From assembly GCF_963675165.1 (NCBI RefSeq), contig NC_087390.1, positions 5,259,250-5,323,249 of the forward strand: 64,000 nucleotides of DNA. The letters run 5' to 3'. Below the pieces are notes generated by a model. It did no database searches, was not told the origin of the DNA, and was given only the letters and a program-made list of their open reading frames with translations. How positions within the stretch are numbered: the stretch's first letter is position 1; each line of letters starts with the position of its first letter. This DNA comes from Halichondria panicea. Lineage: Eukaryota; Porifera; Demospongiae; Suberitida; Halichondriidae. This document shows positions 34,808 through 61,282 of this stretch, piece after piece. The translations under genes and the position numbers were made by a program.

Positions 34808-36383
34808 CATAGATAGTGTAGTAAGAGGGATTGGAAACGGACCGCGATTGTCGGCCAGTCCAGGCTGCGCAGGAAGTTAATTCACTGCACCGGAAGCTAA
34901 TAATAGTTTCTTCACATCACTTTGGGATGGCAGCACAGATTACAGAGCAGACAGACAGCACATGAGACCTTGATAAGAGCTAGAGCTAAAGAGCAGTGAT
35001 GAGCATCGAAGGTACAAGTCCAAAATACCAGTCTACATTTGTATAGCTAGCTTGCTTGTCCATTTTAATATTTGTCCCTTTTAATACAGAGAAACACTCT
35101 ACTGAGATCAAGAGAAGCCACTAAGCCTCTGTTTGTGAAGACGAAGGATTCAAGATATTTAGCAGTGCCAGCATCATGTAACTGCACTGACTTTGAGCAA
35201 CAAAGTTGTAGCTATGAATGGATGATTTACAAGGGAAATACAATTTAATAGCTATCACTTTAGCGTATTGTGTATTCACACTCTTATACTCTTAGTGTAT
35301 ATAGTTGATTCGATACATAATTATAATTATGGTTGTTTGATCACACGTAAAAAAATAATTATGTGCATCAAATAGAAATGTAGTTAAACACTTCGAGAGG
35401 GTTCTAGCCGATTTGCTCACTCAGAAAGGCACTTGCATCAGGGAGGATGAACAGGTCTCCTATACCATGTCAATGAATGATTTGACTGCAAAGGGGCGAG
35501 GGGAGTTTTAAGTTTACAATACACATTGTATATATACGTACCTGACTGTGAACTCAGTCCTTGTGGCATCACTACAGCATCTTGTTGCAGCCAGTGCACT
35601 TAGCTCCTTACGGCTAGAAACCGATTTTTCCCAGTGTCCCAGTCGTCCAGGTATTCATTCTCCAACCCTATAGTATATATCACCCATGGGCAAGTAAACA
35701 AGACGGTAGTAACATAATAACGTATGACCAGTATATACATGTACATACGTCAATTTGTAATTATACATGTAGACTAAACATCACAGCTACTGCCAAAATA
35801 AGGCTTTGTTCAGTCAAATGAAGGTGTCTATTGCACAATATACAGCACTCACTATAATATAAAGGCATTTAGAAATACTCATGACAAATTATATGCCAAA
35901 GAGAGGTACGGAAAAGTGGACATAAATTTAGGTCAATTTGTCATTTTATCACCATGTTGTGAACTTTTCTTAGTACTTAGCAGGGCCAACTCAACACCAT
36001 TTCATTCCTTACCTAATTCTCTATCAACAACATCATCAATCTTTAATATTGCTTGTATAACAAAAAAGATATAGGTACAGAAAGTCATTCCAGTTTGAAA
36101 ATGCCGCCAATTTCTGATATAGGACTGGTAAATAAGGTCCCAATAAATAATAAGTATCTACATGGTAAGAGAGGCTCTAATAAATACTGCTACTAGTTTT
36201 AGTGCTTTACCTTTGTCCTAGAACAGGAGAAAACCTTGTCTTTGTATCTCTGGACGGGCGTGATTTAGCGCTTATAGCTGCGTTACGCGCAGCCTGGATT
36301 GTCCACAAGACCCCAAGTTCATTACATTGCATTGATAAGCCCACGTGATCCCGTTTCCAATCCCTCTTACTACACTATCTATG
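34808..36383. mobile_element. Non-autonomous DNA transposon, CATAGATAG family, copy I
   Basis: A 1576-bp element has inverted termini: left CATAGATAGTGTAGTAAGAG (continuing GGATTGGAAACGG) and right the exact complement. A perfect 7-bp direct repeat GTACAAG flanks it (34801-34807 and 36384-36390). Further in, AGTCCAGGCTGCGC and its inverse recur. No transposase ORF. Interior 34890-35530 resembles 54320-54975. Its left end is about 250 bp upstream of the COG5 start codon, so it probably overlaps or abuts the COG5 promoter. Two more copies are at 39412-40636 and 55938-61207. Confidence 0.85.
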
Positions 36384-36384
36384 G

Positions 36385-36462
36385 TACAAGTACAGATTTG
36401 GAAGCCCCAAACCATAGATAGTCTACTATCTATGGTTTGGGGCTTCCAAATCTGTACTTGTA
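36385..36462. repeat. Perfect 38-bp-arm palindrome with 2-bp centre
   Basis: Arms 36385-36422 and 36425-36462 are exact inverse copies around CT. The centre reads CATAGATAGT-CT-ACTATCTATG, that is, two transposon termini fused back to back. It directly abuts copy I of the CATAGATAG family and contains most of its target duplication. Confidence 0.95.
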
Positions 36463-37831
36463 GCTATGTTTATTAACGATCTTTACCCATTGAGAAGACT
36501 ATCTTCATGTATCTATGTACAGTATAAATAATTATTGATAATTTCCTCATGCTGGACGGAGCTGGAGAGCTGCTGTGAGCAGAGTGCTGTGAGAGATACC
36601 AGTTGACAAAAAACATAGCTTCAACAGTATAAACTTCACTGTTAGCAGAGCTTGTGAAACGCGCGCATCTTGGAAAGAACACTGACAAGTAAACTGAGAA
36701 CCTAAAGAATTGACTGCAACACTACAAGAAGAAGAATGAAGCCTTGTGATGGTGGAGTGCAGAGGTGTAGAGCAGACTGGACCGACATGGGACCTCAACA
36801 GAAAGTGTAAAGCGATTGCTAAAGTGTTTTCGATGCTTCGATGATTGGCCGTAACTGTACACTATAATTACTGATTTTCGGCTATCCAAGTTTTTGCTAG
36901 AGTTCTCATGCAGAGCAATAGTATCAGGTTACATGCATATATGCATGCATGGTGCTGTTTGGAATGAGGGATGGAGCAAACTGTTAATAGAGTAGTTTCT
37001 TCTTGTTTCAGCCTGCATTCTAAGCACCACTCTGTATTGCTATGGTGTTATTCAGTGCCATGCAGTTACATGCATGCATATAGGACTTGCATGATGCATA
37101 TAGCAACCATATTTACTGATGTATCTTTTTAAGCATGTCTTTATGGCTTAAAGAGCGCGGAGTTTACAGTTACAATTTTTGGTTATAATTATGAGCCAAT
37201 AATTATGCATGGGATTAATAGCACAAGTATAACAAGCAATCGCAAGGCCTCTAATTGTATGAGGCAAAGTAGCTTCATTTCCACGTCAATTTTTTTAAAA
37301 GTTCGGGCCGGGAATGAGGCTATATAAAGCCAGAATAGTGATTGAGGTAATCTGATCATATGTAAGCTATAGAAAATGTTGATGCTTATATAATATATAT
37401 ATATGGATTGATGGTGCAATAAGTATATAATATATCACACTTGTAGCTAGCAGTAAGTGTTTTAATGTATGCACGAGGATTATACAGTAATGCTAGTAAT
37501 GCTCGAGCGTATATATTGCGAGTGCATCATCCGATCGCTGATTATGAGGCTGAAAACTCTATACTTTTCAGATTAGAAAAAGCTACCGTATATATACATT
37601 GTCAAGCTGCACTTTTGAGACTTAATGGTGATGAATAGAAAAAAGTGTACAATCTACTGTTTTTAGCCAATCAGATCAATTACAGATAATGTAATGTAGT
37701 CTTTACACACATTAATTTTGACAAAAATTGATATGGAAACCTCAGACTGGCATTGCATGGTTGGTTAATTACTAGTCAATAGTCTAGACATACACATTAC
37801 TACAAAGTTTCATCAGTTTTATTTATGATAG
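36463..37831. other. Gene-free region
   Basis: About 1.4 kb, AT-rich, with several GCATGCATGC runs. Short ORFs have no recognisable motif. Nothing further supported. Confidence 0.5.
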
Positions 37832-39187
37832 CTATCCAACATTAGAGCCATCCTTAACAACACTGAGTTCACGACCCCCAGCGATGCCACCAAAATCAAA
37901 GCTCATATCTAAAGCTCTCTCCCCGTATACCACCTGCTTGGGGTGAGGGTCACTACCGTTAGTGCTATTCGTAACAGATATTGCAGCTTTTCGCAGATAG
38001 GTGCAGTTATATCGCTCAAGTACTTTTTTGTTCCCCATTCGAATTAGATTCATCAGAGTGATGGATGAGCAAGCATGGCCATTGCCTGCTCCCTCTTCAG
38101 CTACACTGGCCCAAATACCATCAGCTCCACTGCATAAGCACTCAAGTTGCACAGTCTCAGCCAGCCCCCACTTCTTATGCACGTGAACCAGCAAAAGTCC
38201 GTTATTCCACTTCCTGGCATTCATTAGTTTTCGTACAGCTGTCGTCCATGCCCCAATTTCTTCTGGTAAGTAGTCTCCAGTAGGTTCCTCAAAAATAATA
38301 CCCAGCAATCGTTTCTCCTGTGGTAGGGATGCAAAGTAGTCAACTGCAGCGAGTACACGTTCTGGTACTTCAGTCATTGCCATAGGGAAATCCCTAAAGT
38401 TGACGAAAATTTTGGAAGCCTTTGAAAGATTAGTACGAGACCATTCGATCCATTTCATGATCAGCTTGCAAATATCTTGCACTGAACAGGACTCCCAATC
38501 GATAGATTTGTCGGCAAGATCGAATTCGATGATTGGGTTTTTCAGTCCATGTTTTTTCATCTTAGCCAGACCAACTGGTATGGTTTCCCTGTCGATCATC
38601 CCTTTAGAAATTCCTTCTATGACTTCAGAGAATGCATAGAGTGTGCTCGGATCTTCACCATTTTCCATCAGCTGTTTGATGAACGTGTCATCAACTCGTG
38701 TCATGTGTGAGACAGACGCAACTATGATGTTTTTAAAGCCACATCTCTTCACTTCATTGTAGATTTTCCATTTGTTCTCGATGGTGAGACCGTGTAATCG
38801 GCCTACAATGCTTTCTCTTAAGGAATTGTCCAGTACAAAGCAGTCAAGGTTTTGGAGTGTGTGTCTCTTCTTTCCTTCATCTGCAATAGCAACTTTGATG
38901 CGATCCAGCTCTTCTTGATACGTTGCATGGGTATGAGCAGATACGCACTTGTCTATTAAATGCTTAGCAATGAACTTTCCACTCAGTTTCACTATTATAT
39001 CGCAAAACCATGTTCTGTATACTAACACTGTCCGGAAGTGAGAACCATAATTAGCTGGCCATGCTAACAGATAACCATGCATGTAAGCCAGTTTTTTTTT
39101 TATAGTATGTAGTAGATTTAGTTCTATAGATCTATAGAGCTTTCCCATATATCTATATAGGCTATTAATTAGAGATGACTTATCCAA
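37832..39187 (-). CDS. DRE-TIM metallolyase-like protein, 3'-truncated paralogue
   Basis: The intronless ORF matches the gene at 52523-54205 very closely over about 350 residues (from YQEELDRIKVAIADEGKKRH to SFDFGGIAGG). It keeps the DNSLRE and HVH metal-site-like motifs but loses the last about 190 codons: similarity stops at about 37878 and a foreign tail RELSVVKDGSNVG follows, so the EF-hand region is absent. The residue matching the full copy's start Met is Thr (ACG at 38923); the 88 residues upstream in the open frame have no counterpart and are probably not translated as such. Likely a truncated duplicate; may be a pseudogene, although no stop interrupts it. Confidence 0.6.
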   Translation of the reverse strand: MDKSSLINSLYRYMGKLYRSIELNLLHTIKKKLAYMHGYLLAWPANYGSHFRTVLVYRTWFCDIIVKLSGKFIAKHLIDKCVSAHTHATYQEELDRIKVAIADEGKKRHTLQNLDCFVLDNSLRESIVGRLHGLTIENKWKIYNEVKRCGFKNIIVASVSHMTRVDDTFIKQLMENGEDPSTLYAFSEVIEGISKGMIDRETIPVGLAKMKKHGLKNPIIEFDLADKSIDWESCSVQDICKLIMKWIEWSRTNLSKASKIFVNFRDFPMAMTEVPERVLAAVDYFASLPQEKRLLGIIFEEPTGDYLPEEIGAWTTAVRKLMNARKWNNGLLLVHVHKKWGLAETVQLECLCSGADGIWASVAEEGAGNGHACSSITLMNLIRMGNKKVLERYNCTYLRKAAISVTNSTNGSDPHPKQVVYGERALDMSFDFGGIAGGRELSVVKDGSNVG

Positions 39188-39287
39188 GCTGCACTATATA
39201 GTATATATATAGCCTTACTCTTTTTCCACTCATGCAGAGCCCCTCCCATTGAGAAATTACTTTCTATATCTGAATTATACGCCACTG
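39160..39287. mobile_element. Degenerate copy of the CAGTGGCGTATAG MITE
   Basis: Shares AGAGATGACTTATC, CCATTGAGAAATT and the inverse end CGCCACTG with 14666-14826; the left terminus is lost. Confidence 0.55.
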
Positions 39288-39411
39288 GCAGCAGGTATAA
39301 TTATAGATCTAATAAAAAATAATTATGGAGTAAACTATAAAGTTTCGCGGAAAGACTAAATGATTTAATTTTCGTGAATATGCCTATAGCGATAACTATA
39401 TAGGGTATAAA

Positions 39412-40636
39412 CATAGATAGTAGAGGGGAGGGATTGGAAACATCTCAGGTGACCAATGTATTGCCCTAGAGAATTCTGACACCATGCGTGTTGCATTCCG
39501 CAAGTATTGATTGCGATTGATTGCGAGACAGCTGCAAAGACAAAAGAGAAGAAACTGAAGAAAACTCCAGTAAGCACTGGCAGAGCTAGTATGTATGTAC
39601 ATTATCCATAGTAAATGTATGGTTTACATCATTTACCTAATTTATTTGATCATCAGAGGTCCATGTAGCACTATTTTACATCTATTTAGCTGGGAATTTG
39701 AAGGTATGAAACTTTGTGGGGGGATATCTTGAGCTAGGAAGTAGCCATGGTTGCTTGAGAGTGATCACAGTGTAGAGGAAGCATTGAAATATGCCTTAGG
39801 CATAGCTAAGTTGAGAATTAGGCTGTTTATTTTTTAATATTAACATAAAAGTGTGAAAAGAAGAATTCGTAAGTACATTTGTTTGCGGGGGAGTTGCTGG
39901 TTAACAATACATTGTACATCACTATTGTTCAGGTCTACATATTGCCTAAGGATCCCGATGTGCCTTGAGAAAAGTTTTTCCTTGCTAACCTGTATAGTTT
40001 TGGAAATATGCTAATTCAAACTTACCCGTAAATTGCTTTCCCAGGGTACTCAGAACATCTGAGGATCTGCCAAGACCCTTTGGAAAAGTTTGGCATGGCA
40101 ATGACAGAGGGAAGGGACACTGTTATTCATTACGATTGGTCGTGCAAAAGCTGTGTAGTGACCAGATGACCACTACCTAAACGTCGTCAGACTTACAAAA
40201 ATTATGTTTTATGTTTGTAAACATCATCATTTCTCCATGCATCCTTTGTGATTGTGTATATCATAATGTTAAGAAATATAAGTATGCAGTCTATAATTAT
40301 GGTCATGAGCTGTGCCTAGCGCCTAGTACTATACTTTTTTTTGTGGGTGCGCATGTCTTGTTCTTTGAAGGTTTGTTAAGGTCTTTATAATAGGATGTGT
40401 AATTCTTCAATGCAACCGAGAAAAGTCTCATTCTGATGTACAGCAACCAAAGAAACTAGTTCAGATCTATGTATGTAGTAGCTAGTAGCTACTGTGGGCC
40501 AGAGACAGCTAGCTGTTCACTCTCTTTTGGCCCCAATTAAATTAACTTCCTGTCTATTTCCTGTCTATTTCCGGTACGACACGCATGGGCCGCGTGAAAT
40601 CCCTGTGTTTCCAATCCCTTCCCTCTACTATCTATG
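39412..40636. mobile_element. Non-autonomous DNA transposon, CATAGATAG family, copy II
   Basis: A 1225-bp element has left end CATAGATAGTAGAGGGGAGG and a right end inverse to CATAGATAGTAGAGGGAAGG, both continuing GATTGGAAAC. A perfect 7-bp direct repeat GTATAAA flanks it (39405-39411, 40637-40643). No transposase ORF. It lies about 225 bp upstream of the truncated metallolyase ORF and about 25 bp from the A-tail of a LINE. Confidence 0.85.
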
Positions 40637-40659
40637 GTATAAATTTCGTGGTACATGCT

Positions 40660-42300
40660 TTCACTGTTTTTTTTAATTTTTTTTTTTTATAATAATTCTG
40701 CAAAATGCATGGATACACTAGTAGCATATCACGCTAACCTAATGTGTGCCCTGTATATATTAATGCATTTGTTCTGCAAATTGGTCTTTCAAACTGTATA
40801 TTTTTTGTGCTTCTTAGATTGAGAGGGCATACTCTTCTTTCCAGTGGTGGATCAGGGAATTTAATGTTACCATTTATTACCTGGTAAAGGTATGATAGCT
40901 TCAGGTACAATCTTCTTGTAGAAAGGGACGGTAGGTCCACAGTATCTAATAGGGAGTCGTAGTCCATATTCCAAAGTTTTGTGCAGATTTTAAGGGCAAA
41001 CTTTTGTACTTTTTCTATTTTGTGAGAATTTGTTTTTTGGTGTGGATCCCAAACAGGGGCAGCATATTCCAGTTTTGATCTCACAAGGGAGATGTAGAGT
41101 TGTCTTAAACATTCTCGTGACGAGTGGCCATAGAACTGTTGGTAAATTATACCAACCTGCTTGCAGGCATTTCTGCACATTTCTTCTATGTGTTTTGACC
41201 ATGAGAGGTCGTGAGAGATCCACACGCCAAGGTACTTGTAGTGGTAAACTTTAAGTAGGGGACGTCCACTGATATTGAGACACATGTTGGGAAGTGGTGG
41301 GCTGAATGTTCTTGATATAGTCATGTATTTACACTTGCTTTGGTTAAACAAGAGTACATTTCTTTCAGACCATGCTTGGAGTTGATCAATATCTCCTTGC
41401 AATTTTATATAATCTTCAGGAGATTGAATAGGATGGTAAAGAAGAAGATCATCAGCATAGAGCAAGAGACTTCCTTCATTTTGATGTAGATCGATGTCAT
41501 TTATATAGATTAGGAAAAGAAGAGGTCCCAGCACCGAACCCTGGGGAACTCCTGACACAACCTCCGAGATATTTGATGACTTTCCATTTATTATGACATA
41601 TTGTGATCTATTCCTGAGGTAGCTTGCTACCCAAGATACCAGGTGGGGATCTAGGTTCAGATTGGTTAGCTTACTCATCAATATCGAGTGAGGAACCTTG
41701 TCAAATGCTTTTTTGAAATCAAAAAAGACTGCACATACACTCTGACCATCTTCAAGCAGTTTGTGCCAATTGTGCACTGCCGTAAGCAGCGCACCTGTGG
41801 TGGATTTTCCTTTAGTGAAACCCCATTGTTTATTCGAGAGGAAAGATATATCTTTTAGCTGTTCTAAGATTTTACTATACATATGTTTTTCCAGGAGCTT
41901 TACAAGGATGGAGAGTAGCGATATAGGGCGATAGTTTAAGGGATCAGACTTGTCGTTTGATTTGGGTATTGGAGTGACATGAGCCAATTTCCAGTCGTAT
42001 GGCAGTTCACAGTTTTTTATCGATAATATATTGAAAAGCATTGTTATACTTGGGGTGATCGTTTCAGCAGTAGCCTTTAGCATTTTGGCGGAGATTCCAT
42101 CAGGACCATTTGCTTTTGTGGTGTCTAGATTTGATAACAGGTTGAATACTTCATCTTCTGTGCAGCGTAAGTTCTCAGGTAAGTCTCTTGTTGGTTGTTT
42201 AAAGGAATTTGGGTCAAGAGGAGGAAGTGAATGGTTGAAATTTGCATAAAACTGTTTGTTAAGGAAACTGTCTATTCTTATGGCTACCAACTGGTCAACT
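40660..42300 (-). mobile_element. 5'-truncated LINE (non-LTR retrotransposon)
   Basis: The minus-strand reverse-transcriptase ORF is followed by about 45 bp of 3' UTR and an A-rich tail (T-rich on the plus strand, about 40660-40690). No endonuclease domain remains, as expected for 5' truncation during target-primed reverse transcription. Confidence 0.85.
40734..42290 (-). CDS. LINE reverse transcriptase, C-terminal part
   Basis: A 518-aa open frame. RT motifs in order: GPDGISAKML, RPISLLS, VFFDFKKAFDKV, SGVPQGSVLGPLLF, LLYADDLLLY (catalytic YADD), YKYLGVWIS, then the C-terminal region with SLVRSKLEYAAPVWDP. It copies its own RNA at a nicked target. The motif set resembles the jockey/CR1/L2 group; the exact clade is not resolved. 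The frame is unbroken, so the insertion is probably young, but without its endonuclease half it cannot move alone. The listed Met is only the first in the truncated frame. Confidence 0.9.
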   Translation of the reverse strand: MVAIRIDSFLNKQFYANFNHSLPPLDPNSFKQPTRDLPENLRCTEDEVFNLLSNLDTTKANGPDGISAKMLKATAETITPSITMLFNILSIKNCELPYDWKLAHVTPIPKSNDKSDPLNYRPISLLSILVKLLEKHMYSKILEQLKDISFLSNKQWGFTKGKSTTGALLTAVHNWHKLLEDGQSVCAVFFDFKKAFDKVPHSILMSKLTNLNLDPHLVSWVASYLRNRSQYVIINGKSSNISEVVSGVPQGSVLGPLLFLIYINDIDLHQNEGSLLLYADDLLLYHPIQSPEDYIKLQGDIDQLQAWSERNVLLFNQSKCKYMTISRTFSPPLPNMCLNISGRPLLKVYHYKYLGVWISHDLSWSKHIEEMCRNACKQVGIIYQQFYGHSSRECLRQLYISLVRSKLEYAAPVWDPHQKTNSHKIEKVQKFALKICTKLWNMDYDSLLDTVDLPSLSTRRLYLKLSYLYQVINGNIKFPDPPLERRVCPLNLRSTKNIQFERPICRTNALIYTGHTLG

Positions 42301-44286
42301 GGTGACGTGGCACTTTATGCATTTAGCCAATGATTGTAAAACAAGCTGTGTACGTGCTTGTGTACGAGATCAGTGTAATTGGAACTGACTGAGAAATTAT
42401 CCTATTTACAGTAAATTAATTGAGTTTGTGTCATCCCTCATTCCAAACAGCACATGCATACGTTCACCATTATTGCTCTGCATACACACTGTTAATTGAT
42501 ACTCTTCAAGTTAATTGAGACAGAAACTGCATGACTACCTAGCTATTAGCAGTAAATGAGTTCGTTTCATCTTTCCAACAGCACTAACATTGTTATAGTA
42601 TTTGATTGTGACTCTTAGTTCGGAGAGCTCGAGGTTCGTACTAGCCTCCTTCACCGGCCTTTGAAAGAAGGCCTGCTATCGACTGCTTGCGCATGCGCCA
42701 AATTATTGGATTTTTTTCCCCGTAAATATTCCTATATGCATGAATGAGTGCATGCATGTGTGCATTCATTGTATTCATTGTATTTGGTATATACTGTAAA
42801 TTGCAACGCTTTTAATACGGTGCATGTCAAAACTCGTGCAGCTACTCAGGCATGAGGGTAAAATCCAATACACACTAAAATATTGTATCCATGGTGAAGG
42901 TAGCATGAAACATGATTAGCATGAAGCAATTAGGAGCTGTTAAGATATCGTATCCATGGTGCAGGTGGCATGAAAGTTCAAACACCTATTGATTAGCAGC
43001 TGTTGTCAAAACCCATGTCTATACATGTGAATATCATTCATAACTATCAGATAGCTGGACCACGTGCATGCACTCTTATATGCATGAGTGCATGTGTGGA
43101 ACTTTCATTAACAACCACACCCGATGAGCACCCATACGCTATAAAACGGCCAAGAGCTAGCTCAGGTCCGGATTGAAACTACAATGACTTCAATGTAAAG
43201 CAATTAACCTTCAAGAGCGGCCACTTCTCTACCCCATGCATATAAAAGTAGCTTTATTAGTCCCCATCAACTTTAGCAATGGACAAAACCTCAGAACAAA
43301 CAGCCACACAGAATTAGCAGGGAATTATTGCTGCATGAGATGGTTTTCCCCTCCCTATATACATGCAACCTAGCTTGTATAGATATAGAGAAGCAGTTAG
43401 CAATGCTCCATGCAGGATTCATTTGCAGCAGGGATTGACTCATGCAGAGCATGCATTGTGATTGGCAATTCAACAAAGACCGCCTCTCTATATAATGGCC
43501 AAAAGGCTGTTCTCGGCATAGTTCTCCGTTATGGAGGTTTCCAAAGCAAAACATGGCGAGCATGCACAGCGCAGCTTGCATCACTCGTCATATTAAGTCT
43601 GCTTCTCAAATGTCAAGTCACTATAATAATTGTATGTACATAGTGTAGTAAAGATAAAAGCATTCTTGAGATAGGTGCAAGCAAAGTGGACGTGTCTAAG
43701 CCTGCAGGCAAAATGCACATGCAGAGCTCATTTACCTATAATTGATTCAGTACACTGCATGCATGCATGACTGATTGACTGCAGCCAATCATGCATTCAT
43801 ATGCATCTAGTTGATCATGCATGCATGACTATTGTGTAAAGGAGATCGGGTCTTAAAAGCATTTCAACACTTACTCATGTTACGTATATATAGTCCATAA
43901 TTATGTCAAAAAACATACATAGTAGAATGACATTGTATCGGATTGGAGTTATACTCTTGTCTGATATCTTCACTTGTTTCCACGCTTTTTGTTGTTTCCC
44001 CTGACCAGCCAATCCTAGCAATTATTCGGTCACATTGCAAATGTTTTCTAGTTGAATAATTACTATAATGCTCCTGCCATATAGTTGATGCACACCTCCC
44101 TCCCGGGATATATCTACACTGAAGGAGTTCCTATACTCCCCTCCCCATGCAGGGCCTATATATACATTATACAAAATACTGGTCGATTGCATGCAGCCCA
44201 TCATGCATTTATGTACATCTATCTACATGTATATATAGTTAGTCATGCATGACTATATTGCGTAAATTAAAGGCATTTGAACTTGC
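42301..44286. other. Gene-free region with local duplications
   Basis: No supported gene. Local direct repeats: TATCCATGGTG blocks near 42888 and 42950, and about 43745-43880 is repeated at about 44172-44290 (shared ATTGCATGCAGCC-type, GTCATGCATGACTAT). A GCGCATGCGC palindrome (NRF1-type) lies at about 42690. Confidence 0.5.
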
Positions 44287-44680
44287 TCAGGAGAATGTCA
44301 CCATGAATTGGAAGGTATACATCTCATGACTTAGTTCTCCAACTTTACTAGAAGTGAATGAGGCGTGTTTGATATCTTTGACACATTCATATTGTCTCTT
44401 CTTTTCAAGTTCATGCTTCCTGTAATAGTTGGTGTGTTGGTTCGATCTTGCGTGGGGAGTAAACACTCGTACATCCAGATAGGTACGTTCAAAGCGCCCA
44501 CCCCAAAAACTGTTGCAAGCAATGTCTAATCTGGCACCGTCTTGGACGTTTGATGACAGCCAGATTAGTTCTTCACCACTTACAGGTTGTACTTCAGGCT
44601 CTATGCAGACGTCACTGCAAATTTCAGTGAGTCGGTTGGCCGTCAAATCTCTTATTTCATCAAGTTGTGCCTGGTGATAG
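44287..44680 (-). pseudogene. Retroelement C-terminal remnant 1
   Basis: Open fragment with DEIRDLTANRLTEIC, DGARLDIACNSFWGGRFERT and DVRVFTPHARSN, then a basic ELEKKRQYE segment. The motif series (EIRxLTA, DGARLD, FWGGRFERT, FDVRVFxPHA) is one I associate with the C-terminal region of reverse-transcriptase-type multicopy proteins in sponges and cnidarians. No RT core is present. Two more pieces of the same family lie within 3 kb. Confidence 0.55.
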
Positions 44681-45199
44681 TGAAACCACCGTGATCGACT
44701 GAGAATTGTTTACCGCATGCACAAGATGAAGGGACTCCTGGTAGTTGCCAACTGTAGCGAAGCGAGAGGGAATCTCGAAAAGCTCCTTTGTGTAAGTCAA
44801 ATCCAAATTCTTGGATATGGATCGAGGGAAGTGAGCCGATTAGAAGCGCCTTTCTCTTGTGCTATAGGTCCATATAGATCTTCGTAGAGTGGTATAAAGG
44901 GATTGTTTCAGGGTGTCTGCTGTATATGTTTATATAATGTTCGCGATTTGATTGGCGGACATCATTCCTGGCTTTCACTTGAGCATTGGCTACTTCTGTG
45001 GCATACTCGAAGCTCTCTTCTTAGATAGGTGTTGCCGCCACTCCCTGAAGGCGACGACGTCCGTGTACTCTCTTCTCACTCTTGCAGCTATACCAATAGC
45101 TAACGTTCTAGTGCAGAGCTATATAACTACTATATATAAGATGTATGTACTTTCACATGTACTTTTTGCTGGTACATGTATTGCGTAGTGACATATACA

Positions 45200-45480
45200 T
45201 AGATAGAAGCTTCCAATGCTATCGGAAGAATGAGTTAGAGAAAAAGAGATGTTATTATGAGCGCATTAGAGATAGAACACGGCTCGTTTACCCCACTGGT
45301 TTTCTCTGCTGCTGGAGGAGTTGGCCCAGTTGCAACCATTGTCTACAAGAAGTTGGCTTCTCTACTATCCGAGAAGCAAGGAAGGCCATACGGTTCCACC
45401 CTCCACTGGATGAGATGTAGACTGAATTTTTCACTCCTACATGTATAAGATCTGCCGTGATGTAAATCCGAGGCTCCCAA
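45200..45480 (+). pseudogene. Retroelement C-terminal remnant 2, frameshifted
   Basis: Opposite orientation to its neighbours: YRKNELEKKRCYYE in one frame, then EIEHGSFTPLVFSAAGGVG and YKKLASLLSEKQG in another; the frame changes near 45262. Continues the same protein family downstream of the part seen in remnant 1. Confidence 0.55.
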
Positions 45481-47495: not shown

Positions 47496-48276
47496 TTCTG
47501 CAATAGAGAACTAAGTATATAGCCTCGATTCGGCCTTGAATCGAGGCTAAGATTCCACACAGAGTGGAAAGCATGCGCATGGGTGGCCGACAGGGTCACC
47601 CCCTCCGCTGTCACTAAGACAGTTAGCTCTAGCAAAACTGCAGAGGGAGTCAGACTACTGCAGAGGGAGTCAGAGACTCAGGAGAGTTATAGCATAGATA
47701 AACGGGATAGGCAACGCCCAGCACTTCCGTTGGATGAGGCGAGTTGCTAAAAAGGGGTGTGCACTCAAAATGTCAGTAAAGATTTTATATTATAGCAAGC
47801 TGTGCTCTTGAGGAGACACCAGATACACTTAGACATAGGCTATTAATCTTTTAGAGCTGCTTATGCAAAGTGGTGAGGAAGTGAGCTCCAAAGGGGGTGG
47901 GTGTCAGTACTCTCTACAAACCATAACAGGTCTGTTCCCAAGTACTTCAAATGCCATCTCTTCGATCACACAATACAGATAAAGATACTTGTGTTCCACT
48001 TTCTAATACCTAAACTGTGTCTTAGAGCACTTCAAACTAGATTACCATGTACAGTAAGAGCAGGAGAGGTACGCAAACTTTCTGGACTTCGGACAAACGT
48101 TTCATGGTGCTGCCACTACTTCACTGCATTGAGAGCTGGAAAATATGCTTTGTTCCATGCAGTTATAAACACACTTTAATTCTGTGAAACGTACATGTTA
48201 TAAAATTAGTTCATATTGGAGATAGAGGTACACAAAGGTTCCGTACAGAATGTCACTAAATGAAAAAAGTGCCCTA

Positions 48277-48535
48277 AGTATATAGGAGAGCTTTAATGCT
48301 CGTCGGCACTATATCTCTCCTATATACTATGAGGCATTTTTATAATGCATTTTTATAATGCATGTGCATTAAACAATTTCCCCAGGTATATAGGAGAGCA
48401 TTAATGTCCATTGGCATTAAAGCTCTCCTATATACTAGGAAACATTTAATGCTCGGCACTAAATCTCTCCTATAATAATATGGGATATGCTTTATGATTG
48501 AGGGCACTAAGTCTCTCCTATAATAATATGGGATG
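48277..48535. repeat. Cluster of hairpins upstream of the transposase gene
   Basis: Arms AGTATATAGGAGAG and CTCTCCTATATACT occur twice as inverted pairs (48277-48328, 48386-48436), followed by two direct copies of CTCTCCTATAATAATATGGG with ATGCTTTATGATTG. It directly precedes the first exon-like segment of the plus-strand gene. Confidence 0.8.
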
Positions 48536-50810: not shown

Positions 50811-50992
50811 AGTAAGCGCTAGCAAAGATAATATCTCTGTGGATAGTATAGCTAGCTGTGTGTGCAAGTCTTGCGGCACAATTTGAAATTGTAATCACTT
50901 CCTTCCGGACTGCCCAGCCCCCTTTTATACACGGGAGCGCGGCGTGCTATCGCGCATTGATATCTGACGCATTCTCGTTTAATGGGAAACAT

Positions 50993-51250
50993 TAGGCCAC
51001 TCCAAGTGACACTCTGGTTTCTGGTCCTGAAGTTTTTCTAATTGCATGCGGGCGGGCGGCTTTTCTCATTATGTCATTATCAATTTCACCTTATGAATCT
51101 CATTATTTTGCAAATGAATATCATTATCACACTATTTTGTACCTGGACCATTCTGCGCATGCGTAGTAGAAATAATGAGATAGAAATCCAAGAATAAAAT
51201 CTGATGCGGGCGGTGGACCAGAAACCAGAGTATCACTTGGAGGGGCCTTA
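50993..51250. mobile_element. MITE, about 258 bp
   Basis: Inverted ends: left AGGCCACTCCAAGTGACACT (continuing CTGGTTTCTGGTCC), right the inverse of AAGGCCCCTCCAAGTGATAC with the same continuation. Internal GCGGGCGG segments. Possible TTA/TAA-type flank. No ORF. Confidence 0.75.
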
Positions 51251-51353
51251 CAGGGAAATTATCCAATAATTTTGCGCATTAGTCATTTCATGGGCTCGAA
51301 TAAACATCTTTACTATAAAGCTTAGGTACAGTCTACTGTAGCTTCACTATATG

Positions 51354-51523
51354 CAGGGCGGGTCGAAGAGATATTTTGAAAAAAGGCTACTGAAAGCTCA
51401 CAAGAGGCTGTTTTCCTTGGCTCTGACCGCCATTTTAAGTGGAATTAGTCTACATAATGACTATTATTATTTTGTGAGAGTTTTTTGGCCTGGAAAGAAA
51501 AAAAACACTTCGACCCGCCCTCC
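51354..51523. mobile_element. MITE-like element, about 170 bp
   Basis: Inverted ends GGGCGGGTCGAAG (51356) and CTTCGACCCGCCC (51508). A 60-residue ORF crosses it but has no motif and is probably spurious. Confidence 0.55.
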
Positions 51524-52522
51524 AGAATGGTAAGAAGCATCATATACAGCAAAAACACAGAGCTAGAAGTGTTTTTGGAAGTTTAAAATGACTACTAGTT
51601 TTTGTGTTGTTTCTAGTAACTTGATGATCGCTCAGAGCTTCCACTGGAACATGTTTTGTATGTGCTTCAAACTTTTATCATGGCATTTATAGTTTCACAA
51701 AAATCATTATAAGAAAATCATGAATATCATGAGCAAACTGTTTACCGCAACTTTAATTACTGTGGTTAGTTGTTAGTTACCATAGTTTGTGTTTAGGAAT
51801 GTTCATTAGTAATTATCTCTGTTGAGTTTCCGGAGCAGAGCCTCCCTTAGTAGTCTTTTGTTTTGTACAATAGTTCTTTGTTGTAAAGAGGCCCTGCCTG
51901 CGGGGCTCTGTGCACTATACCCTCAGGCTTGCATGCATGTTCTGCATGTTTTGTCAGTGTCTTTTTGTGATCTCTATTGTATTCTGAAACTCTGTCAAAT
52001 TCAACTTGCTTGTCGCTTGCTAGCTATAGCTCAAACTGCTGTGCATCAGATCTCTTGCCAATAAATAGTGCTTCCAGAGCCAATCCAGTTTCAAGTCAGC
52101 AGGATAATCGCATTCATGACACTCTCTAATCTACCACACAATTAATAATTATTGATCAATATTGACAAGTTAATAGCAGCACGCTCCTTTGGTGTAATAT
52201 TTACAACAGTATAAAGGGCTATAATTATAATAGTTAGCTATAAGTTCATGATTGTCTGGGAGACACTGCATGCTCAAGCCCCGCCAGATTTGCATGCATA
52301 GATCATTCTGTGCTCACAAATATTGAATCAACCACAAAAAATTGTTACATATAATTATACGGTAATCAGCTTGAATAGTTATACACAAGTACAATTGTTT
52401 GGATTGACATGGCTAGAAACAAGTTATGTATATATAATTATTATAGCTATGCACATCGCACACTACTAGTTTAGCAACTTCTAGTTTAGCGACTTTAAGT
52501 TCTCACATCTAAGAGCAATCTT
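51524..52522. other. Gene-free spacer
   Basis: About 1 kb, AT-rich. No gene seen; the part next to 52523 should carry the 3' UTR of the metallolyase-like gene. Confidence 0.45.
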
Positions 52523-54205
52523 TTAAGACTTTTGTAGTTCGTCACGCATGGCAGGAATGAGTCCTTTACGAAATGCGATCGACAACAGCTCATCAGCAGT
52601 CTTGACGTCATATTCGTGAACAGCCCATTTTAGATAGACAAGGAATTCCTTCCAATCGACAAACCCATCACTGTCCATGTCCATTGCCTTTAGTCCTGCC
52701 TTAGTATCGTTGCATTTAAAACAACCAAAGTAGGGTGCCATGAAGCCATTGTAGAACGAGTCAAACTGCAGGGCATCATCTCCCTGTACCTTGTCTTGAA
52801 GGTCCCATGTGTCCCACCTCTCTTTAATTTCCGTAATCAGCAATTTCTCAAGATCTGTTCCTGCTTGCATGCGAGCAATTACATCTCCCATCTTGTTTGT
52901 TATTTGCCCTCCAGATCGATCAAACAACACAGCCAGGCCTGCTTCACTCATGTACTCTTCTTTTCTGTTTCCACGGAGATCTTCCAGCATAACTTCTTTC
53001 ATCTTTTCAGCTATCTGCTGGTTGAATTGCGGATTGCTTCCAAACAACTCATTAAGCCGAGTGATAATCATGGCAGTTGAAGCAAGTGTGCTGATCCTAA
53101 CCGGTGGCTTCTCACCAAAGAATTTCGCAATATCGAATTCACCTTTTCCTACATGACCCCCTGCGATGCCACCAAAATCAAAGCTCATATCTAGAGCTCT
53201 CTCCCCGTACACCACCTGCTTGGGGTGAGGGTCATTACCGGTAGTGATACTCGTAATAGCTATCGCAGCTTTTCGCAGATAGGTGCAGTTATATCGCTCT
53301 AGTACTTTTTTGTTTCCCATTCGAATTAGATTCATCAGGGTGATGGATGAGCAAGCATGGCCCATGGCTGCTCCCTCTTCAGCTACACTGGCCCAAATAC
53401 CATTAGCTCCACTGCATAAGCACTCGAGTTGCACAGTCTCAGCCAGCCCCCACTTTTTGTGCACGTGAACCAGCAAAAGTCCGTCATTCCACTTCCTGGC
53501 ATTCATTAGATTTCGTACAGCTGTTGTCCATGCCCCAATTTCTTCTGGTAAGTAGTCTCCAGTAGGTTCCTCGAAAATAATACCCAGCAATCGTTTCTCC
53601 TGTGGTAGGGATGCAAAGTAGTCAACTGCAGCGAGTACACGTTCTGGCACTTTAATCATTGCCATAGGGAAATCCCTAAAGTTGACGAATATTTTGGAAT
53701 CCTTTGAAAGATTAGTATGAGACCATTCAATCCATTTCATGATCAGCTCGCAAATATCTTTCACTGAACAGGACTCCCAATCGATAGATTTGTCGGCAAG
53801 ATCGAATTCGATAATCGGGTTTTTCAGTCCATGTTTTTTCATCTTAGCCAGGCCAACTGGTATGGTTTCCCTGTCGATTACCCCTTTCGAAACACCTGCT
53901 GTGACTTCAGAGAATGCATAGAGTGTGCTCGGATCTTCACCTTTTTCTGTCAGCTGTTTGATGAACAAGTCATCAACTCGTGTCATGTGCGAAAAAGACG
54001 CGACTATGATGTTTTTTAAGCCGCATTTCTTCACTTCATTGTAGATTTTCCATTTGTTCTCAATGGTGTGGCCGCGCAATTGGCCTACAGTGCTCTCTCT
54101 TAAGGAATTGTCCAGTACAAAGCAGTCGAGGTTTTGGAGTGTGTGTCTCTTCTTTCCTTCATCTGCAATGGCAACCTTGATACGATCCAGCTCTTCTTGA
54201 TACAT
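52523..54205 (-). CDS. DRE-TIM metallolyase (HMGL-like)-type protein with C-terminal EF-hand
   Basis: Intronless, 560 aa. Residues about 20-370 look like an HMG-CoA-lyase/isopropylmalate-synthase-type TIM barrel: LDCFVLDNSLRES (place of the D-x-T-L-R-D metal motif, with Asn-Ser and Glu replacing the usual residues), NIIVASFSHMTRVDD, GIIFEEPTGDYLPEE, LLLVHVHKKWGLAETVQ (HxH metal-ligand position) and GANGIWASVAEEGAAMGHAC. Residues about 380-490 are a helical linker. About 490-520 hold a canonical 12-residue EF-hand loop DMDSDGFVDWKE. Inferred: a divalent-metal C-C lyase or condensing-type enzyme under Ca2+ control; substrate unknown and the altered DRE motif leaves catalysis open. A truncated twin is at 37832. 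Start chosen at the first Met of the conserved frame. Confidence 0.72.
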   Translation of the reverse strand: MYQEELDRIKVAIADEGKKRHTLQNLDCFVLDNSLRESTVGQLRGHTIENKWKIYNEVKKCGLKNIIVASFSHMTRVDDLFIKQLTEKGEDPSTLYAFSEVTAGVSKGVIDRETIPVGLAKMKKHGLKNPIIEFDLADKSIDWESCSVKDICELIMKWIEWSHTNLSKDSKIFVNFRDFPMAMIKVPERVLAAVDYFASLPQEKRLLGIIFEEPTGDYLPEEIGAWTTAVRNLMNARKWNDGLLLVHVHKKWGLAETVQLECLCSGANGIWASVAEEGAAMGHACSSITLMNLIRMGNKKVLERYNCTYLRKAAIAITSITTGNDPHPKQVVYGERALDMSFDFGGIAGGHVGKGEFDIAKFFGEKPPVRISTLASTAMIITRLNELFGSNPQFNQQIAEKMKEVMLEDLRGNRKEEYMSEAGLAVLFDRSGGQITNKMGDVIARMQAGTDLEKLLITEIKERWDTWDLQDKVQGDDALQFDSFYNGFMAPYFGCFKCNDTKAGLKAMDMDSDGFVDWKEFLVYLKWAVHEYDVKTADELLSIAFRKGLIPAMRDELQKS

Positions 54206-54299
54206 TGTATATGGGCAGCACAGCAGGTACCCACACTATAAATGCTTAGCAATGAACATAACTGACACTTATATAGTCTTGAAACCACTCTCCGTAAAT

Positions 54300-54975
54300 A
54301 CAGGATTAGAAACTAACCACGCACGCTGACCACCGGAAGCTAATAGGCAGCACAGATTATAATAGTAGCCTCGATCCCAGGCTAAGAACAAACTTGAATA
54401 GAGAGCATGCAGTGATAAGCATCGCAGGTATAAGTACAAAATAGCAGTATAGCTTGCTTGTTCCTTGTGATAATACTCTACTGAGAGAAGCCACTATAAT
54501 TATTATAGCTGTATGATTTAAGATACCAACATGCAGTGTCAGTGCAACTGCACTGACTATAGTGGATGATTTACAAAATAAATAGCTTGATCACTTAATA
54601 ATTTATATTTATACTTCTGTACATTACCTTCAATTTATGGGCAATGTTAGTCGTTCAATCACACATAAGAAATTAATAATTATGTGTATTAAAATTAATT
54701 ACAATAATGTTTCCCTTTTTTTGATCTGCTTGCGGTTTTTCTTTTGTGTAGTCTTTGTTGTTGTCATTTGTTACCACAGCTCACGTCTCTGCACAAGCTG
54801 TTGATAACCCTCAGTGCATGCTTCAGTATTCTGGCAGAACTCCACTGATTCACTCACTCAAAAAGCACTTTACGTCAGGGAGGGTGCATAAACAGGTACT
54901 TTACCATGTCAACGAATGATTTAACTGCAAAGGGAGGAGGGGAGTTTTAGGTCTACGTACTTGACAGTGTTCGCT
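54300..54975. repeat. Partial copy related to CATAGATAG-family copy I
   Basis: Shares ACCGGAAGCTAATA, GGCAGCACAGATTA, AGTGATGAGCATCG-type, TAGCTTGCTTGT and GGAGGGGAGTTTTA with 34880-35520 in the same order. The left end keeps AGGATTAGAAAC (compare GGGATTGGAAAC) but the CATAGATAG terminus and a target duplication are not visible. Lies about 95 bp upstream of the metallolyase-like start. Confidence 0.65.
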
Positions 54976-55930
54976 CCAAACAATCAAAGCATATACTCCA
55001 GTGATGAATTAATAATTATATGTATAGGGCTACATTTTGATACCAAGAACATCCTCTATGCTTATTCCATTGTTGAGATAACACTGAAAAACTACTATTT
55101 TCTACTGTTTTGACAATATCAGCAGTTGCAAACCACAAACCAATGATGCTTTAATCAACCACAAGCTTAATTAAAAATGGGCATACAGTTATTACAATGA
55201 CATCTGATTCTAGCTAGTCATTCCTGTTCAATGTTCAGAGCTCATGGAGCTGCTCATTGCAAACTGATAGGAGACGATCTCCTCTTCACAAAAATCCTAG
55301 ACAATGGTCTGGTTGATCATCCTATATGGTTTATTACCCTTGCTCTGACCCATGCATGTATATATCACACAGGAATTACACACAGTGCAAACTTATTATG
55401 CTTCTCTCCTTGAATATTGAAGATTATTTTTCTGTGCATAGACAAAATAATGATAGGCCCTGATAAATTATCCTTTTTTCACCCATTATTCTATTCTTGT
55501 GCTTATATTGTTCTCGGATTATTCTCATAAAAATCCCTACATAATAATTATAACTGAACAAAAACACAGCACACACAATTGACCCAAAACATAATATAGT
55601 GTTTTCTTGCTGCCTTGAACTGATCCATAATGTTCACCTTCATTTTTTGCCCTGAGAACTTCATTATGCAAAACTTCATGTAAGGATCTTTACCATAAGC
55701 AATAGTCTACAGGTCAGAGAGAGCAGATAGGAAGGTGGGGCTGGTTGCTGCAGCAGATATGGAGGTGGGGCTGGTTGCTGCAAAGACAGAGCTGGAGGTG
55801 TGGCTGGTTTGGAAGGAAGCAGGGAAGGATGTGGGCTGGGTCTCAGTAGTTCTAGAAACCATGTAATTGTAATAGGCGAACTCAAGAAAGCGTTCGGCAC
55901 CGGAGGAGGCTCAGAATCCATTGTTTGTGT
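54976..55930. other. Spacer left of the nested transposons
   Basis: No supported gene. A Pro-rich minus-strand ORF (55676-55936) arises from short GGTGGGGCTGGTTGCTGCA-type repeats and is doubtful. One end of a long-distance inverted repeat lies at 55618-55695. Confidence 0.45.
55618..55695 (+). repeat. Left arm of a long-distance inverted repeat
   Basis: About 78 bp (GAACTGATCCATAATGTTCA ... GGATCTTTACC) matches the reverse complement of 63923-64000 with only a few differences. The match reaches the window's right edge, so the true repeat may be longer. Confidence 0.9.
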
Positions 55931-56937
55931 GTTCAAACAAGAAGGAGAGGGATGGGAAACGCTACGTAAATAGCATTGACGATCCGCGTTTCGGTCAATG
56001 TTTTCTTCTTTATTTCCTCCAATCCATGCTTTTAGCTAGTACTAGGCTATAAACTAGCTGCTGAGCTCCATGTATATGTATTAGCAATGGCTAGTGGAAC
56101 AGTCACAACAAGGTAGCAGCAATAGTTAGTGAGACCCTCCAAGCAGTGAAAAGCAGCTTGGACAGGCAAATTTTTGAGAGGAGCTCTGTCTGTACCGTTG
56201 AGTATTCCAGTACAGTGACTGACATGATAGAGAATTATGGAAATGTAGCAAAGTTCTGTGAAATTACTGTGCCGATACGATGAACCAACTATCAATGAAT
56301 ACAAAGAGACATTTACATACATTCAATCATTGATGTAACTTTCTAAATGGGTGTCATAGGAATGAATGACTCCCCTAAATAATGACTCCCGGTCACTCCT
56401 ACCTAGGCACCAGTGACTCCCGGTCACTCACGCCTAGGAATAAATGACTCCCCCGGTCACTGACTCCTAGTCACGAATGACTCCCCCCTGGAAAAAATGA
56501 CTCCCCCGAAATTTATATATGAACACTGATCCATAGAGCTAAAGAGACTTCAGGGGCTATACTAAGTACATGCATCCTCAAAACCTGTCACAGTGTGACT
56601 ATACAATCAAGCTCAAGACTGTTATCAGGACTGCATGCATGCTATCTGTGAGAGACCTGTTTAATACATAGTATGACTATAATTACAGCTGTTCCTTATA
56701 TACTGTAAACTGGTTCAGTTTAGCTATTAGTACCTATAGTACTTATACTACATTGTACACTCTGTTCACATTTTCACACGTCTCACGGTCACTGTAAAGC
56801 AAAACTTATAATACAACAACATCCATCAAAATAACAAATAGATCTACAGTGCATGAAAAACAAACAAAACAACAGTGCAAATTAACAGTGTATAAACAAA
56901 AACAGCTAGTGGAAGATAACGAAATGCTAAAAAAATT

Positions 56938-59900
56938 CTATCTAGATCTACAAGTAGGACAAAACCAATCTCCAAGTGGAGATACTTTAATACGAACACA
57001 TTTATAATGATACCACACAGTACATGTGTCGCACTGGACCATTTCATCATAACAGTCAGGGCGGAGACAAGGGCAGTATATCGTAATTACTATGCTGGAA
57101 AATCTTTCTGGTCTCTTGCGGCTACTAACATCTTTTGACTTTGGAAATCTTCTGAGTTTCTCATTTTCAAAGCAACGCACAAGATGTGGCCTCATTTTGT
57201 CTTCATTTAGGGTGATGGTATCCAGATTGTCTCCTTGCAATGCGTGGTATGCAGCGGCAATTGCAAACAAACCACAGTTGTTACTGCCACTGCTCTGCTG
57301 TTGAATGGAGGCCACAGATAGTAACAGCCCATTGTGCGCTATTAAAGGCTTATACATCTGTGCGATTTGCAGCTCAGCACTTGGCTCCAGGTCTTTCCCA
57401 TATTGGAAGCAGCTATCAAAGAGGAAAAGTTCCCCCTTGATGAGTGCTGTCGCAATCCAGTGATGCCTCTCTGTTACAAAGAATATCTGCACGGCTGTAT
57501 AGGATATATATGATATAATTATTATACGGTACGGCCAAGGATGAGGATGAGGTATAATTATACCAATACTATAATAATACTACTATTAATTTAAGTAGAA
57601 ATTATACCTGTGGCTTCACTACTAGTGACTGCAGGAAAGGACATCTTCTGAACCAGAAGAGTAGAATAACAGCCTTCAATATTTGGAAATTGCATTCGCA
57701 TCAGTTTGTGCGCAGCATACATATGACGGTCAGAAAGCATCCCGCTCTCAGCAAGAACTACATCCTTGTCTCCCGTCCTCAGGTCCAAATCCTTCACCCA
57801 GTAACTTGAATTCTGTCGAATGTGCACACAATAATTATAATGAACGGTTTATAGTGTGCATGCACATAATTATTAATAATAATTGTAATTAACGATAGCT
57901 CCTGTTAACAAGTATATAACTATATACCTTTCTTGTTACAGATTGAGTAGTCCTTTGCTTCTTCAAAGGTGGCTCCATAGAGGATGCAGTCTTAACCTGA
58001 GAGAAGGGGGCGTCTCGCTTGCGAGAGGAGTGAGCATCTGGCTTGTGAGAGGAGGGGACGTCTGGCTTGTGAGAGGAGGGAGCGGCTGGCTTGTGAGAGG
58101 AGGGGACGTCTGGCTTGTGAGAGGAGGGAGCGGCTGGCTTGTGAGAGGAGGGGACGTCTGGCTTGTGAGAGGAGGGGACGTCTGGCTTGTGAGAGGAGGG
58201 AGCGGCTGGCTTGTGAGAGGAGGGGACGTCTGGCTTGTGAGAGGAGGGAGCGGCTGGCTTGTGAGAGGAGGGGGCGTCTGGCTTGTGAGAAGAGGGAAAA
58301 TCACAATTTTTTTCCCACAGCTTCTAAAAATGGAGTGTATAATTATAAAGAAACATGAAACATTAAATTAATATCGTAAAGAGAAATGTAATGTAATTAT
58401 AATTAGCTTCAAAATCTAGAGACACATGCATTATACCTTGCTTGGGTCTTTCATAGGAGTACTCGTCAAAGAAGGGTTAAACTGATCGAGAGATTCATCG
58501 TGATGGTTGTCTGATAATTCGGAAGGATCCGAGAGAGAACTATGTTGATCAAAGATAGGTTTTTCGGAGTCTGAGCCATGGTAATGCTTTAACCGCTGTT
58601 GGTTAACAGCCTTTTTTAAGGTCTTTCCAGTCTTAGGGTTGGCAATCTTAAAGACTCCCTTGTCCAAGCACTCCACCACCGTGTATGGGCCTAACCACCG
58701 AGGCTTCAGCTTGTCTCCCTTCTTACATTCCCTGGCTGAATTCCTCAGCCAGACCAAAGTCCCAGTCTTAAACACCTATATAATTAGAAAAATGACATGG
58801 CTATGACATTAAACGAGTAATGAAAATAGCCATGCTACGCTCATACAATGATATAGCCTGCTCACCCTCTTGTCTGCATGCTTCCGATCATAGTACATCT
58901 TGTCCTTTTCTTGGGCATTGTCAATGTTCTTCTTGGCTTTGCTGTGGATATCATCCTTTAACTTTGTAACAGCTCGAGCATGGGTCATAATGGCACTAAT
59001 GTCCCAGCTCTGCTCAAGTTCACCCTCGCTGCCTAACTCCAGTTGAATAGGGAGTACAGGTTTCCTGCATGTGGAATGTTATAACAATAATGCATGCATG
59101 CCAGATTATCATGTAATTATTATAATAATTATAATTATGAACAACTCACCGACAGAACATCAACTCGAAAGGTGAATACTTCGTTGCCTTTTGCTTACTC
59201 GTCCTATAAGCAAAGAGAATAGCGGGCAAGTGGTAGTCCCAGTCGGTCTGTGAGTCATTCACATATTTGAGTAGTGCTGTTTGAAGTGTTTGATTGAAAC
59301 GTTCAGTTAGCCCGTTGGTTTGTGGGTGGTAAGCTGAAGTGACCCTGTGCTCTGTTCCAGTGAATCGAAAAAGCTCTGTGTTGACCTGATTAACAAACTC
59401 ACGGCCTTGGTCCGATATCAGCACCTCACAAAACCCAAACCTGCGTGCATGTATAACCATAATCATTAAATACGTGTTATTATAATTATGTGTAGAGATG
59501 CATGTGATTACAATTTCACACACATGCATAGCTTACCGACAAAACAAGTTGTACAGGAACATTGCCACTCCAAATGCAGTTTTGTCAGGGAGTGGGGCTG
59601 CTTCAGCCCATTTGCTAAAATAATCGACCAATGTTACCACATATTTGCTGCCATTGGGTGTAATCGGCAAAGGTCCTATCAAGTCTATGCCAACCTATAA
59701 AGTGAATTACATAATTATAATTAATATATGATTGTGCTCAAAACAAATAATTATTATGCAATGCCATAAAAATTATAGTGTACATATACCTGATGCCAGA
59801 CTTTGGGTTGTACAGATATCGGATGGAGTTTGGCATTTGTGTTTACAAATGCTGGGTTCATTCTCTGGCACTGGCTGCAGTTCTTTACATACTCTCGAAT

Positions 59901-60314
59901 CTCCTCCACCATCGACTTCCAGTAGAATCTAGAACATATCTTGTCTATAGTTCTATCTCTTCCAAAGTGGCCACCAGCTGTTCCTGCATGCATGCGTATA
60001 ATAGATTACAAGCATACATAATTACATACATGCTCTATTACCTACTATTATCATTTTACCAAAGCCATAATAATTATTATACCTGCATGGCAATCTTCGA
60101 GGATTCTTGATTTCTCCTCATTGCTGCGCACACATATCCTCCAGTCAGCTGCATCAGCAGCTTTGGTGTGCTTCTTGTAATATAGGCTACCATTTTCAAA
60201 CTTAAAGTTCTGCCTGCATTTTCTTCTAAAGTTTGCCTTCTCTGTTTTGCTGTTAATAGTAGGAGGGTATTCTCCTTTTCGTAAATAGTTTTCAATCTCT
60301 TGTAAATTCTCCAT
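56938..60314 (-). CDS. Ginger1 transposase: integrase + Ulp1-like protease + PHD finger
   Basis: Nine exons with consistent phases, 856 aa, no stop: 60083-60314, 59790-59983, 59537-59694, 59150-59440, 58866-59064, 58437-58775, 57928-58323, 57608-57812, 56938-57494. Domains: N-terminal YLRKGEYPP; H2C2 zinc finger (CHAGTAGGHFG ... NCSQCQ, residues 75-120); DDE integrase core with Asp146 (GIDLIGP), Asp205 (SDQGREF), Glu241 (TERFNQ), giving D,D(35)E spacing; GPY/F motif WLGPYTVVE (about 385); a 10-aa repeat linker of the SSHKPDVP type; NLS-like PPLKKQR; Ulp1-type cysteine protease with His683 (RHHW), Asp698 (LFLFDS), Cys745 (SNNCGLFA); C-terminal PHD finger CPCLRPDCYDE...CDTC...CPTC. Catalyses cut-and-paste transposition. 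Published Ginger1 proteins share the integrase plus Ulp1 layout. Confidence 0.93.
57999..58290 (-). repeat. 30-bp coding minisatellite in the Ginger gene
   Basis: About ten units of CTCACAAGCCAGACGTCCCC type encode a PSSHKPDV/PSSHKPAA linker between the GPY/F motif and the Ulp1 domain. All frames on both strands are open across it, so long ORFs in the other frames are artefacts; the chosen frame is the one that continues into PPLKKQR and the protease exons. Confidence 0.85.
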
Positions 60315-61282
60315 TTCTTGCTGCCTTCTTCAAATGACATGACTGTGAACGATCACTGGTTTTATACCATAGATCTAGCTGTCACTTGCTGTCAACTACA
60401 GGATAGAACAATTAACCTTGCAACTCTGCTCTTCACACATTTATAGGTCTACATTCCAGCTGTCACTTGCTGTCTACTACAGGATGAACACTTGCTTCAT
60501 TGCTACCTTGCATGCTACTACTAACCTTGCTCTTCATCCTGCATGGCTCTTCATTCTCTACTATATGTCTATGAGGAGTGCATGAATGTACTCTTGCTAC
60601 TATATACTTACATTGATGGCAACATTGGCGGAACAAACATGCGCATAGGGGAGTCATTTATTCCTGGGGGAGTCACCCACACCTTAGGCAGGAATGACCG
60701 GGGAGTCACTCCCACCGGGGAGTCATTCATTCCTCTGACATGGGTACACAAAAAGTCTGCTTTTAAAAACCAGCTTACTAAGACAAAAATGAACATTACT
60801 TACCAACCTAAAGCCAAGTGGCTTTGATTTTACTTGCATACAATGCCCAGCTACTTAAGAAATAGGGAATCATTAATATTTTGGGCTGTAGTCACAGCCT
60901 CTCCTTGTAGAAGGTACACAGAGCCACTAGATAGAGCCGAAACGATAATACAACACTCAAAAAACTGCCTTTGAAAGTTTTCAAGCTCTTGGTGAGATAC
61001 ACAATGTTTCTATATGATGCACAGTAGGTGTGGATGCTCAGCACAGTACTAAGAGTCCCAGTGGAGAGCTGTGAATGATAGTAATAACATTTCCCGCTGG
61101 GTTGGCGAGGTGTCTAGAGCCGAAACGCGAATCAACCTTTTGGCATTACACAGAAGTGATTGTGCGCACGTGCTCCGTTTCCCATCCCTCTCCTTCTTAT
61201 ATCTATGGTCCAAACCATTGTTGTGTCAGGCATATGAGCGTTGTTGCTATGATCTAAAATGCTTAGACACTGTTATTTATAG

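Follow-up and report, generated by a model that had tools for sequence, protein, structure and literature searches.

Three short copies of a transposon family in a sponge genome

The window analysed here, i.e., a single stretch of 64 kb from the genome of the sponge Halichondria panicea (131.5 Mb in 39 contigs), carries three non-autonomous copies of a transposon family with CATAGATAG ends and 7-bp target duplications, which we place in the P superfamily. The CATAGATAG motif occurs eight times in the window, as compared to 0.93 occurrences expected from shuffled sequences. Copy 1 (34808..36383; no strand is assigned to any of the three) is 1576 bp long, has perfect 33-bp inverted ends and lies between two GTACAAG heptamers at 34801..34807 and 36384..36390 (+ strand, as for all of the duplications given here). 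Copy 2 (39412..40636) measures 1225 bp and is bounded by GTATAAA at 39405..39411 and 40637..40643. An initial annotation of this DNA had described both copies in these same terms, including their perfect 7-bp repeats. Its account of the third copy, a decayed one at 55938..61207, holds for the size without an insert (~877 bp, where ~880 had been given) and for the flanks GTTCAAA (55931..55937) and GTCCAAA (61208..61214), which differ by one mismatch, but not for the ends, which are not those of the other copies: the left end, 8 bases short, starts with CAAGAAGG at 55938, and the right end reads CATAGATATAAG..GGGATGGGAAAC.

Stretches of 33-631 bp tie copies 1 and 2 to particular elements of the genome that bear a transposase. 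The right 631 bp of copy 1 are 97.8% identical to element L058 and the left 33 bp are 100% identical to it, with positions 586-870 of the copy showing 77% identity to a transposase exon of the same element. The left 625 bp of copy 2 are 86-87% identical, and its right 82 bp 91-93% identical, to the transposase-bearing elements L053 and L040/L041, and pieces of copy 3 match L060, L066, L054 and L051 at 70-95%. Fragments of ORF2, the second gene of the full elements, are still found inside the non-autonomous copies L012 and L036. Because the copies share end stretches and exon pieces with full elements, and because L012 and L036 keep fragments of ORF2, elements of the type of copies 1-3 are, on this comparison of sequences, internal-deletion derivatives of the kind known for the fly P elements. 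A CACGTG motif stands just inside the inverted repeat at one end of copy 1, L017, L012, L055, L056, L057 and L065; this end is the transposase side in L055, L057 and L065 and the ORF2 side in L056, and L064 has no CACGTG within 80 bp of its end.

The insert in copy 3 is a Ginger-like element on the - strand (56352..60740), flanked by the 4-bp duplication TGGG/TGGG and named by its reading frames (for an integrase, an Ulp1-like protease and a PHD-finger protein) rather than by profile search. It ends in TGTCA(T/G)AGGAATGAATGACTCCCC, and its coding part contains a tandem repeat of 24 bp. The window also contains a direct repeat of 300 nt at 94% identity (37870-38169 and 53152-53451, 15.3 kb apart) and, at 48260-48534, a cluster of inverted and direct repeats, the longest of which share a TATATAGGAGAG core.

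Target duplications and excision footprints across the genome

The composite end CATAGATAG-N(3-16)-GGGATTGGAAAC has 296+287 matches in the genome and the reversed pattern has none, whereas CATAGATAG alone is unspecific (1372+1369 matches vs 480+426 for the control). Among the 100 composite ends listed out of the 583, 52 lacked an exact partner and seven of these were fetched. The target duplications were scored in 34 end pairs, consisting of window copies 1 and 2 and 32 genome pairs, mostly from contig C1, all of which were picked because both ends fit the end pattern. Outside this set are L040/L041 and L054, whose duplications are perfect, L053, which has no match, and copy 3 with its one mismatch. 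A spurious pair (47693/61207) was discarded before counting, as were false inner ends in L009, L015, L017 and L033; L043 and L044, which are one site in a duplicated segment, are both counted. Perfect 7-bp duplications flank 29 of the 34 pairs, and 32 have duplications with at most one mismatch; L009 and L034 have none (3 and 7 mismatches) and were counted as misses. Not one of the 34 pairs has a perfect duplication of 4-6 or 8-11 bp, so that the length of 7 bp proposed for the family is fixed in the pairs examined and does not vary freely.

These counts bear on a different reading of CATAGATAG, namely that it is a host promoter motif whose pairing is accidental. The 2741 matches to CATAGATAG alone, against 583 composite ends, would agree with such a motif, as would the first eight solo sites listed (L001-L008), which all fall within two other dispersed repeats; for the composite end, however, the motif reading is refuted by the ratio of 583 to 0 and by the 7-bp duplications (with at most one mismatch) around 32 of 34 pairs, and we regard it as having next to no probability. 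Solo CATAGATAG sites listed on G000:C1 from 0 to 2.4 Mb are mostly in the + orientation before 1.05 Mb and mostly in the - orientation from 1.2 to 2.4 Mb.

The target preference of the family differs from the GTNYAAR that the window copies had suggested. Over 31 distinct duplication sites it is a symmetric GT-NNN-AC, a palindrome centred on the duplication, outside which T/A and G/C are preferred less strongly, and 41 of 93 duplication positions are self-complementary, as compared to 22.9 +/- 4.5 for random 7-mers drawn from the window. A 7- or 8-bp duplication at a palindromic site of the GT..AC type is a mark of the P superfamily, and the contention that 7 bp fits no common superfamily must be dropped, since Galileo, a member of this superfamily, duplicates 7 bp with the consensus GTANTAC (PMC4168063).

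Head-to-head remnants of the ends, CATAGATAG-N(0-30)-CTATCTATG, are found at 51 places in the genome, with none for the control, and we read them as excision footprints. From 50 that were listed we retrieved 40; the other ten are the window footprint, four with a core that was already represented and five of six copies on C17. In 27 of the 40 the flanks are perfect 7-bp direct repeats, a count that rises to 30 if one mismatch is allowed, and one footprint is perfect at length 5 instead of 7; when flanks were swapped between sites, 0 of 40 matched at the tolerance of one mismatch. The 30 duplicated footprints retain 9-20 nt of known end per side (the minimum of 9 nt being imposed by the search pattern), and remnants of 12 nt and of 18 nt are the commonest classes, at 10 of the 60 sides each. 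Five sides keep more than 18 nt, an excess that could come from one or two bases matching by chance, and no remnant is longer than 20 nt. Spacers of 31-61 nt occur at only six places (control 1); in one of these, filler is enclosed by 18+18 nt of end, and at least two have the look of internally deleted copies. The remnant lengths, with 55 of 60 sides at 18 nt or less, lead us to infer that excision leaves about 18 nt or less of each end. The footprints are thereby indirect evidence of another P superfamily feature, a 5' cut made with a long stagger within the inverted repeat, and the 51 places provide a record of the enzyme's cut sites and of break repair that is independent of any assay.

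One such footprint lies at 34786..36441 of the window (no strand assigned) and, as read by inspection, is the older of two events, copy 1 appearing to have inserted into it later. Its GTTTGGG repeats are at 34786-34792 and 36435-36441, and its remnants are CATAGATAG at 34793 and CATAGATAGTCTACTATCTATG at 36413-36434; the filler repeats the right flank in inverted orientation (arms 36385-36422 and 36425-36462, 38 nt, 100% identical). On G000:C17, between 1.94 and 2.16 Mb, the same 32-nt footprint core is listed at six places within ~220 kb, so that this footprint probably multiplied as part of a larger duplicated unit.

The transposase and its convergent neighbour

The driver of the family, which the initial annotation had left unknown, can be found elsewhere in the genome: transposases of the P type lie between the same ends, with the same 7-bp duplications. 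PF21787, the profile of the P-transposase RNase H, has 46 matches in the genome, several of which begin ~2 kb from a composite end. We retrieved 21 elements with transposase sequence and found both ends in nine of them. Seven of the nine have perfect 7-bp duplications and an eighth, L048, has one with a single mismatch; in L053, the right end is damaged and the duplication has no match. Most full-length elements are 4.4-5.5 kb long, one is 11.4 kb, and most have two genes placed tail to tail. L016 (4.4 kb) looks full-length but contains no transposase-like frame. Dada elements, which have a transposase of their own and insert into multicopy RNA genes, make duplications of 6-7 bp, and duplication length alone would be compatible with Dada or with a new superfamily into which P transposases had come by nested insertion. 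The transposases between matching ends with 7-bp duplications in eight of nine two-ended cases, and the non-autonomous copies, in which fragments of transposase and ORF2 follow one another as in the full elements, refute nested insertion for the copies examined and leave this alternative with a vanishingly small likelihood; P transposases suffice to explain the family.

The transposase has a Cys-containing N-terminal part followed by a split RNase H fold, its exons encoding RNase H N, a GTP-binding insert and RNase H C, and the protein ends shortly beyond the last of these. An RNase H domain of TNP type, split in this way by a GTP-binding insertion domain, is the third P superfamily feature that we find. 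PF21787 and PF21789 score above cut-off in L064 and L065, and PF21788 does so in L065; the transposase profile retrieves the Drosophila P transposase structure 6p5a at an E value of 2.7e-4, and the putative catalytic second D falls within the segment aligned to it. The putative first D (LIDEM) and E (QDPLENYFG), assigned by eye, are in the expected Pfam segments. By its catalytic core, then, the sequence is that of a P superfamily transposon, but the canonical architecture of P, Galileo and THAP9 is not apparent in it. None of the 14 THAP domain matches in the genome is at a transposase locus (as compared by eye, and a very diverged THAP is possible), and no C-terminal domain is fused to the transposase, the convergent stop codons being only ~80-172 bp apart in the three elements measured, i.e., in all three. 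That these are canonical Galileo- or 1360-like P elements, whose THAP and fused C-terminal domain were missed through introns, would suit the 7-bp duplications and the GT..AC target. The whereabouts of the THAP matches, the proximity of the stop codons and the ends of ~30-33 bp, unlike the long repeats of Galileo, make this very improbable.

Opposite the transposase, ORF2 runs toward it from the other end of the element in 17 of the 21 retrieved elements, and is missing in L048, L059, L061 and L062. Its product is ~320-350 aa long and its sequence diverges to ~30% identity between families, with motifs such as RYxAGYV, DRGGL and TIRGF kept. Genome-wide there are 76 ORF2 matches, of which 58 were entered in an analysis of neighbours, the other 18 being adjoining pieces of loci already entered. 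ORF2 is within 9.5 kb of 34 of 42 merged transposase loci (not all independent, as eight transposase rows share an identical score), is convergent in 34 of 34, and is 1.2-1.6 kb from the RNase H segment in 27 of the 34; several loci have long open frames for both genes. No ORF2 accompanies the remaining eight transposase loci, and 21 ORF2 loci are without a transposase match in their vicinity. These lone ORF2 loci (G000:C14:2154892, C39:33161, C6:6951491 and 18 others), some of which have long open frames, are possibly deletion derivatives or transposon-derived host genes. The ratio of nonsynonymous to synonymous substitution rates (dN/dS) is 0.44-0.55 in the three close ORF2 pairs for which it is computable, a figure that is based on few changes and that we do not rely on; two further close pairs show no synonymous differences at all, and between families dS has reached saturation.

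No Pfam family scores above cut-off for ORF2, PF12596 has no match in the genome, and searches of PDB sequences with ORF2 profiles did not retrieve a P transposase. For the predicted structure (a single model), the best of 981 chains is the P C-terminal domain, residues 617-734 of 6p5a, with a match that spans nearly the whole of this 118-residue segment. The C-terminal half of ORF2 is acidic and helical with a basic tail, as in the P C-terminal domain, and the N-terminal half matches only chains of unrelated kinds. ORF2 might instead be an unrelated accessory protein of a P superfamily transposon, such as a repressor, a DNA-binding protein or a nuclear-import helper, with a helical fold that resembles the P domain by chance. 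We consider this unlikely in light of the rank and extent of the structural match, the absence of the domain from the transposase, the composition and tail that ORF2 has as expected, and the fact that its link to the P C-terminal domain was proposed before the structure was predicted. It is probable, in our estimation, that the C-terminal half of ORF2 corresponds to the domain fused to the transposase in Drosophila and that the family belongs to the P superfamily.

A proposed two-part P transposase and its relation to known systems

The arrangement suggests that the P transposase has here been broken into two obligate subunits, a catalytic core and a C-terminal domain that contacts the target or single-stranded DNA, encoded by convergent genes and kept so across families with only ~30% identity in ORF2; this interpretation has the better part of the probability. 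Transposase and ORF2 protein would probably assemble in trans into one transpososome, whose cuts would fall exactly at the element's boundary for the 3' ends and ~18 nt into the inverted repeat on the other strand, with insertion at GT-NNN-AC palindromes through a stagger of 7 bp. The same two proteins would move non-autonomous copies such as the three in the window. If so, this family is a natural experiment on the P transposase, indicating that the C-terminal domain is able to function as a subunit of its own; what it does in target binding and control would be testable by adding or withholding one protein, and control by two genes could regulate transposition by stoichiometry. Our literature search found no published P element with a separate C-terminal gene, but it did not cover Repbase and novelty is thus unproven.

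The Drosophila P element (6p5a) likewise combines an RNase H transposase bearing a GTP-binding insert with short inverted repeats and a palindromic target. According to a review, its staggered cut is also long (17 nt, where ~18 nt is inferred here) and its C-terminal domain is joined by a disordered linker; it differs in its 8-bp duplications, as opposed to 7 bp here, and in having one gene with a THAP domain and a fused C-terminal domain, whereas we found no THAP and the C-terminal-like domain is in the second, convergent gene. Galileo, also of the P superfamily, shares the 7-bp duplications and the GT...AC consensus but has long inverted repeats and a THAP domain in place of ends of ~30-33 bp. 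THAP9 and the P-like elements of zebrafish resemble the sponge family in having a P-type transposase together with deletion derivatives, and are unlike it in their 8-bp duplications, 13-bp ends and THAP9 gene. The ProtoRAG or RAG1-RAG2 transposon is similar in one respect only, the presence of two convergent genes in one DNA transposon, and belongs to a different transposase superfamily that makes 5-bp duplications.
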